Shown: in pieces, positions 25,849 to 27,579 of the stretch
How positions within the stretch are numbered: the first letter of the stretch is position 1
Layout of the letters: each line of letters starts with the position of its first letter
Assembly (NCBI GenBank): GCA_903789415.1
Contig: CAIFEG010000019.1
Coordinates: forward strand, 1-38,871
DNA length: 38,871 nt
Source of the DNA: an uncultured Eggerthellaceae bacterium
GTDB lineage: Bacteria > Actinomycetota > Coriobacteriia > Coriobacteriales > Eggerthellaceae
Direction: 5' to 3'
Position numbers and translations under genes: made by a program
Notes under the pieces: model-generated
Databases searched by the model: none
What the model saw: the letters and a program-made list of their open reading frames with translations, nothing else
What the model was told of the DNA's origin: nothing

Positions 25849-26166
25849 ATGGCAAGTATGAATATCAAAAAGGGCGACAAGGTAAAGGTGCTTTCGGGCA
25901 AGGATCGTGGCATTGAGTCCACGGTAACCCGCACGATTCCTTCTACCCGTCGTGTAGTTGTAGAGAAGGTTAATGTCGTCACTAAGGCACAGAAGCCGAC
26001 TCAAGCTAATCCACAGGGTGGACTTACTCACTTTGAGGCACCAATCGATGTTTCAAACGTGCAGTTAATTTGCCCTAAATGCAATAAACCAACCCGCGTA
26101 TCAGTAAAACGTGTGGATGGTAAGAAGGTTCGCGTTTGCAAAAAATGCGGAGCTGATATCGACTAA
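25849..26166 (+). CDS. rplX: 50S ribosomal protein L24 (zinc-type C-terminus)
   Basis: A 105-residue assembly-initiator protein near the exit tunnel. KKGDKVKVLSGKDRG is the KOW motif. The C-terminal part keeps two CxxC pairs (CPKC and CKKC), so it probably binds zinc. Two starts are possible (25849 or 25858); the first has the better upstream site. A 130-nt structured spacer separates it from rplE. Confidence 0.97.
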   Translation: MASMNIKKGDKVKVLSGKDRGIESTVTRTIPSTRRVVVEKVNVVTKAQKPTQANPQGGLTHFEAPIDVSNVQLICPKCNKPTRVSVKRVDGKKVRVCKKCGADID

Positions 26167-26296
26167 TATGCGTATGTGCATTATTGCATGTACGAAATGC
26201 CGCCTGCAGGAAGCAGGCGGCTATGACCCTTGTCAAAGTGGCAAGGGACGCAGGGTCGGAAATCCTGTGTTCAAATCATCGGAAGGGTTTTAAAAA
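26167..26296 (+). promoter_or_regulatory. structured rplX-rplE spacer, candidate regulatory RNA
   Basis: Four consecutive hairpins fill the spacer. P1 is 26171-26180 with 26185-26194 (TTAT loop). P2 is GCCGCCTGC (26199-26207) with GCAGGCGGC (26213-26221). P3 is 26227-26235 with 26239-26247. P4 is 26248-26254 with 26264-26270. ACCCTT (26226-26231), part of P3, can instead pair with AAGGGT (26283-26288), which includes the rplE ribosome-binding site. The two pairings exclude each other, as in a translational switch. In E. coli, S8 represses the spc operon by binding near rplE; whether this element does so is unknown. Confidence 0.55.
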
Positions 26297-26845
26297 ATGG
26301 CAACAACGCCTCGTTTAAAGGAACGGTACGACAAGCAAATCGTCTCTAAGCTTGAAAAAGATCTCAAGCTTGAGAATGTCAATCAGGTTCCTCGTCTTTC
26401 AAAAATTGTTGTAAATATGGGTGTCGGTCGTGCTGCAAGCGATTCTAAACTTTTAGATGGTGCAGTAGCTGATATGCGTCAGATCACCGGTCAACAGCCA
26501 ATGATCTGCCGCGCAAAGAAATCAATTGCAAGCTTTCATGTGCGTGAGGGTCAGCCAATTGGTTGCAAAGTCACCCTTCGTGGCAACAGGATGTGGGAAT
26601 TCCTAGATCGTTTGCTGTCATTAGCTTTGCCTCGTGTTCGTGACTTCCGTGGTATTTCACCAAAAAGCTTTGATGGCCGCGGAAACTACACGCTGGGATT
26701 AACCGAGCAATTGGTATTCCCTGAAATCGAATTCGACAAAGTAGACCATACACGTGGTATGGATATCACCTTTGTAACTACTGCAAATGATGATAAATCT
26801 GCGAAAGCTCTTTTTGACGAGCTTGGCTTCCCATTCCACGACTAA
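26297..26845 (+). CDS. rplE: 50S ribosomal protein L5
   Basis: A 182-residue protein that binds 5S rRNA and contacts the P-site tRNA. The family blocks are [29 protein letters not shown] and [23 protein letters not shown]-like segments. GGAAGGG (26281-26287) lies about nine bases before the ATG and lies in the region that can be masked by upstream pairing. Confidence 0.98.
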
Positions 26846-27075: not shown

Positions 27076-27180
27076 ACCAAGGCTTTTCGCTTCCAGGTGT
27101 GCTGCGCTTATAGGCGCTTTGGTCACGGGCTGAAGCGAACCGAAACGCACCTCATCACGAACCAAAAGGAGAAAATTTTT
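27076..27180 (+). promoter_or_regulatory. structured rpsZ-rpsH spacer
   Basis: TTCGCTTC (27086-27093) can pair with GAAGCGAA (27132-27139) around an inner hairpin, GCGCT (27104-27108) with GGCGC (27113-27117) closed by a TATA loop. The 3' side leads into the AAAGGAG site of rpsH. It may be a translational control element. Confidence 0.45.
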
Positions 27181-27579
27181 ATGACTATGACAGATCCCAT
27201 TGCAGACATGCTTACGCGTGTACGCAATGCGAATTCAGCGGGAAAGGAATCAGTGAGTATGCCTTCGAGCAAAAAGCTGGTTGAAATTGCTCGCATTATG
27301 AAGCAGGAAGGATACATTGCAGGTTACGACGTCGAAGACGCCAAGCCGCGCAACATCCTTGTAATCACGCTGAAATACAACGAGAAGAAGGGTCGCGTTT
27401 TGCGCGGCTTAAAGCGCATCAGCAAGCCAGGTCTGCGTATTTACGCTGGCAAAGATGAGCTTCCTCGTGTTCTGGGCGGACTTGGTACCGCTGTTATTTC
27501 TACAAGCAAAGGCGTAATGACCGATCGTGACGCTCGCAAGGCTGGCGTCGGCGGCGAAGTCATTGCCTATCTTTGGTAA
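27181..27579 (+). CDS. rpsH: 30S ribosomal protein S8
   Basis: A 132-residue primary-binding protein of the central domain and a known translational repressor in other bacteria. [15 protein letters not shown] and [26 protein letters not shown] are conserved. The ATG at 27181 has AAAGGAG nine bases upstream; an ATG at 27187 is a second option, and the in-frame extension to 27097 covers the spacer hairpins. Confidence 0.97.

Follow-up and report, generated by a model that had tools for sequence, protein, structure and literature searches.

Several leaders through which ribosomal proteins control their own synthesis, those of L1, L20, S15 and S4 among others, mimic rRNA, and resemblance to the rRNA site of the protein is a common, if not obligatory, property of autogenous ribosomal protein leaders. 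The catalogue of such RNAs was extended by Eckert and Weinberg, who described new leaders for L2, L4, L13, eL15, L17, L20, L31, S4, S6:S18, S15 and S16 (PMC7247131). L5 is not a ligand in Table 1 of that study, and text searches, which covered main texts and, for the most part, openly accessible papers, found no L5 leader. For the spc operon, a review describes control in bacteria that are not E. coli-like as unknown and sees no progress from phylogenetic studies (PMC10931766). The window analysed here, a stretch of 38,871 nucleotides, covers the S10-spc ribosomal protein region of an Eggerthellaceae genome (Coriobacteriia). We estimate at roughly 0.7 the probability that the spacer between its rplX and rplE genes is an autogenous leader for L5 (uL5), which would mimic helix 84 (H84) of 23S rRNA and, through binding of L5, repress rplE and the downstream spc genes. 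Since L5 is absent from the list of leaders, and spc control outside E. coli-like bacteria is described as unknown, this would be a leader not described before, probably with a ligand that is new as well, at the same junction as in E. coli, and its place is probably within the known class of autogenous ribosomal protein leaders.

The spacer extends from the rplX stop (26166) to the rplE ATG (26297), both flanking open reading frames are real, and rpsH and rplR (L18) are found in the same operon as rplE. The features discussed below are collected in Table 1. Four tandem hairpins had been proposed for the spacer and were borne out by folding, which places them in 26171-26270, the minimum free energy (MFE) of 26150-26320 being -67.5 kcal/mol (z = -6.0), a value that none of 200 shuffles equalled. 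Promoters and terminators were also sought in the spacer, and nothing above shuffled controls was found.

Table 1. Positions in the window of the rplX-rplE spacer, its predicted RNA features and the flanking genes
Feature	Coordinates	Strand	Evidence
rplX (L24), upstream gene	25849..26166	+	ORF; zinc-finger C-terminus ending in DID and stop, as in relatives
P1 hairpin	26171..26194	+	MFE; sequence not conserved, missing from relatives' alignments
P2 hairpin	26199..26221	+	MFE; sequence not conserved; another hairpin often here in relatives
P0 5' strand (AUGA), junction-closing helix	26223..26226	+	Covariation in 3 of 4 pairs
P3 hairpin, junction arm (CCCUUG/CAAGGG)	26227..26247	+	Covariation; length varies among relatives
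P4 hairpin, loop UCGGAAA	26248..26270	+	99.4% of cells paired; two-sided changes in 4 pairs
P4 apex GGUCGGAAAUC	26254..26264	+	Match to helix 84 of 23S rRNA
Junction strand J4/0 (UCAAA; relatives UUAAU or similar)	26271..26275	+	Nearly invariant UUYAAW
P0 3' strand (UCAU)	26276..26279	+	Covariation
Shine-Dalgarno sequence of rplE (GGAAGGG), directly after P0	26281..26287	+	Sequence
rplE (L5), downstream gene, presumed source of the ligand	26297..26845	+	ORF; tblastn relatives

The 5' half of the spacer is variable in a particular way. In most relatives the stretch from the rplX stop to the conserved element contains a strong hairpin, whose sequence is unrelated; z is < -2 in 38 of 48 Eggerthellaceae, and the median z is -3.9 against mononucleotide shuffles. 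A variable yet recurrent hairpin in this region (26171-26221 in the window) could be a feature of mRNA stability or processing. Some further observations concern the surroundings of the element. Directly 5' of the AUGRCC of P0 there is often a word resembling TATAAT or TACAAT, as seen in four relatives (e.g. TATAATGACCCC), which might be an internal promoter; the rpsN-rpsH spacer (27076-27181 of the window) is also about 100 nt long and has GC-rich stretches, in an operon that is otherwise compact; and the rplE match of one relative contains an in-frame TAA inside the aligned range.

Conservation is confined to the 3' half of the spacer, which reads AUGRCCCY, a variable hairpin, RGGGAC, GCAGGGUCGGAAAUCCUGC, GUUYAAW, YCAU, CG and then the Shine-Dalgarno sequence. 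The conserved element is a three-way junction of the helices P0, P3 and P4, all uninterrupted in the conserved part, and it ends just 5' of the rplE Shine-Dalgarno sequence. P0 is a 4-bp helix (26223-26226 with 26276-26279) that the original prediction had missed; it was proposed by eye from co-varying partners and then counted (AUGA/UCAU, AUGG/CCAU, ACGA/UCGU, AAGA/UCUU and UUGG/CCAA), and because it closes P3 and P4 these two hairpins become the arms of a three-way junction. Among 64 distinct Eggerthellaceae sequences 98.4% of the pair cells are standard, and two-sided changes are observed at 10 of the 17 pairs, in all three helices. On none of the five measures did any of 500 shuffles do as well, and with the partners slid by 1-3 columns pairing was 30-48%. 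Covariation across relatives, suggested with the prediction as a check on it, is thus present in the RNA of these 64 sequences. P0 is absent from the single-sequence MFE structure, and unguided RNAalifold on the alignment predicted P3 and P4 and not P0. A crude class-wide pairing test with swapped tails, in which several tails were misplaced by the expressions used, gave 12 native against 10.8 swapped, which is not significant. P0 is to be regarded as supported in Eggerthellaceae and as not established beyond that family.

A translational switch had been proposed for this spacer, in which ACCCTT (26226-26231) pairs either with CAAGGG (26242-26247) inside P3 or with AAGGGT (26283-26288) over the ribosome-binding site of rplE. 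The hexamers are indeed at these places, and the window has six contiguous complementary bases for the alternative pairing, but this pairing is not conserved and is almost private to the window's genome, while P3 is kept in relatives. Among 88 distinct Eggerthellaceae elements, complementarity of at least five contiguous bases is seen only in the window (6 nt) and in one relative (5 nt), the other 86 having at most four. Moreover, the P3 5' strand pairs with its native Shine-Dalgarno region no better (-3.36 kcal/mol) than with genome-swapped ones (-3.45 +/- 0.07 kcal/mol). As the switch pairing is unconserved, and native partners do no better than swapped ones, it is not the conserved mechanism, and P3 belongs to the junction as one of its arms. 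The switch is disfavoured as a general mechanism, and we consider it extremely improbable as the explanation of the spacer. What stands of the original prediction without the mutually exclusive pairing is its broader part, a regulator of translation that acts between rplX and rplE independently of the S8 site known from E. coli. Conservation, covariation, position and the match to H84 give good support to such a putative cis-regulatory translational RNA.

Of the 110 Eggerthellaceae genomes in which the spacer was read, 106 have the element (model R1, the window's own genome included), with scores that are not independent because many of the sequences are in the training alignment. Three genomes have a spacer shrunk to a few bases, and the element has been lost together with the spacer, and two have a reduced form that retains the P4 loop. 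On whole genomes R1 gave one match per genome. In a sample of the class it matched 52 of 53 Eggerthellaceae and gave weaker matches in other families of Coriobacteriia; all 20 of the weaker matches that were read by eye sit just upstream of rplE. A broader model, R2, built from the weaker class matches together with the family sequences, reaches 128 of 246 class genomes, with one match in each except for a marginal second match in a single genome. By tblastn, rplE was directly downstream in 36 of the 38 R2 matches tested, and both exceptions were marginal (E 0.06 or more). In the phylum samples (296 and 246 genomes) only marginal matches were seen outside Coriobacteriia, and these are attributed to chance, the two examined not being near rplE. 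Collinsella and some Atopobiaceae (ten relatives) have a degenerate P4 loop or one with an insert, as in GAGGACAACCC...CCCC; the flanking stem and the tail CUUAAAACCCC are kept in the same relatives.

The resemblance to rRNA was analysed by running R1 without filters on the rRNA operons of three Coriobacteriia and of E. coli. The best match on the rRNA strand was one and the same 23S hairpin in the three Coriobacteriia, placed at helix 84 by its flanks, and in E. coli the best match of the whole operon was 23S nt 2299-2317, UCCUGGUCGGACAUCAGGA; from the E. coli numbering and the 23S helix scheme we take this hairpin to be H84. H84 is accordingly the top rRNA-strand match of the leader model in all four rRNA operons searched, and it was likewise ranked first in four of four when the P4 apex was searched as a profile of sequence alone. 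The R1 matches are individually weak (7.5-8.4 bits, E above 1), and it is the agreement among the operons that is the point; the four operons being homologous, the match should be considered as one observation seen four times. In shuffled operons an equally good word was found by sequence alone in 10-17 of 300, and in none of 300 on a stem of at least four pairs. The H84 apex is GGUYGGCAAYC almost throughout the 84 class genomes matched, and GGUCGGACAUC in E. coli, and the leader apex, GGUCGGAAAUC, varies at comparable positions, in a match of only 11 nt. Below the apex the leader and H84 have different stems, which speaks against a recent copy of an rRNA fragment. Coriobacteriaceae (Collinsella) and some Atopobiaceae have an unchanged H84 beside a degenerate P4 apex, so the contact with the ligand may be lost or different in these relatives. 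Within H84 of Coriobacteriia itself, apex bases 4 and 10 change together (GGUCGGCAACC or GGUUGGCAAUC), and this joint change points to a tertiary contact inside the loop.

In the ribosome L5 contacts H84 (PMC10531944), as does its yeast homologue (PMC3098278), and L5 is the product of rplE, the gene immediately downstream of the leader. S8 is a less attractive ligand. A divergent S8 operator controlling the spc operon would be at the same junction as the S8 operator of E. coli (PMC10931766), with rpsH in the same operon; however, S8 recognises an asymmetric internal loop within a helix, a core that has two base triples and an A642 that never varies (PMC4176348), the conserved part of P3 and P4 has no interruption, and no 16S segment was matched better than 23S H84, which together make S8 quite unlikely. 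Mimicry of the S8 site in h21 was likewise rejected, the recognition core being absent.

A leader often responds to the product of a gene other than the adjacent one (PMC7247131), which counts against L5 and in favour of some other ligand, either another ribosomal protein of the operon (L24, S14 or L18) or the 5S-L5-L18 particle as sensed by the junction. The presence of rplR (L18) in the operon and, within the ribosome, the nearness of 5S loop C to the loop of H84 (PMC7283268) are in line with this, but the rRNA match is the H84 apex, which the literature consulted ties to L5, and the element is always directly before rplE, and we find such a ligand unlikely. In the draft assembly from which the window comes, 5S rRNA was not found. 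Mimicry of 5S rRNA by the P4 loop was considered and rejected. The word UCRGNAG in 5S rRNA makes up one side of helix III together with a bulge, according to the 5S secondary structure that we assume here.

It could also be asked if any ligand is needed. A ligand-free intercistronic structure (insulator, ribonuclease block or processing site) might set the translation or stability of the distal part of the operon, with the likeness to H84 a coincidence, and the shortness of the H84 match and the strong variable hairpin just upstream in many relatives (median z -3.9) fit such an explanation. On the other hand, an insulator needs no invariant loop and junction bases, and the element adjoins the Shine-Dalgarno sequence and matches H84; this makes a ligand-free structure very unlikely in our opinion.

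Comparison with databases gave no known identity. No Rfam 15 family reached its gathering score in the window, and no match at E 0.01 was obtained in 20 relatives. The best sub-threshold match, M23 (30 of 41.2 bits), and the other sub-threshold matches were rejected, being below gathering and absent in relatives. ARAGORN called no tRNA in the window, and a tRNA-Ser-like remnant, with the T-loop-like TTCAAATC and ACCCTT/AAGGGT as possible acceptor stem, was discarded, since in most relatives TTTAATTC takes the place of TTCAAATC and the stem is missing.

The reading that we prefer is thus that of an autogenous L5 leader. P0, P3 and P4 of the rplE mRNA form the three-way junction, in which the P4 apex copies the apex of H84. 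L5 in excess of its rRNA targets would bind P4 and lock the junction, and the weak P0, whose 3' strand is beside the Shine-Dalgarno sequence, would be stabilised, which would keep the 30S subunit away from rplE. If E. coli is a guide, translational coupling may then spread the repression to the downstream spc genes. In support of an L5 leader we count the covariation, the fixed place before rplE, the H84 match and the loss of the element when the spacer collapses, and against it the 11-nt length of the match, the degenerate apex in Collinsella and some Atopobiaceae and a P0 that is established only in Eggerthellaceae. The element has the general marks of a ribosomal protein leader, namely a covarying structure, a consistent place upstream of a ribosomal protein gene and resemblance to an rRNA site.

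The control point is that of E. coli, but the RNA is another one and so, most probably, is the ligand. The element is a concrete candidate for the regulator of the spc operon in much of a bacterial class, and an L5 leader would, as far as we have found, have no precedent either in its ligand, L5, or in its mimicry of 23S H84. It would also show that one operon junction can be governed by different ribosomal proteins in different lineages. One may go further and propose that the spc operon of much of the class is under L5 and not S8, and that the H84 mimic senses, beyond free L5, the condition of the central protuberance with its 5S-L5-L18 particle; we consider this rather unlikely, and if true such a readout would tie ribosomal protein synthesis to 50S assembly.

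The candidate leader can be compared to known systems in several respects. With the S8 operator of the E. coli spc operon it shares the junction before rplE and the proposed translational autogenous control by mimicry of an rRNA site (PMC10931766), but the E. coli operator overlaps the rplE start and mimics 16S h21, whereas the junction described here ends before the start codon is reached and has an apex that matches 23S H84, and the S8 core with its asymmetric internal loop, A642 and base triples (PMC4176348) is not seen in it. Like the leaders of the L1, L20, S15 and S4 type it is a conserved RNA before ribosomal protein genes, a part of which resembles the rRNA contact of an encoded protein, although its structure matches none in Rfam 15. 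The three-way junction is shared with S15 leaders, where the protein stabilises the junction and blocks initiation (PMC10931766); the gene is, however, a different one, and the best rRNA match is to 23S H84 and not to the 16S h20-21-22 junction. Finally, the Coriobacteria L31 r-leader is a candidate leader from the same class (PMC7247131), but it is located before rpmE, while the present element is found before rplE only.
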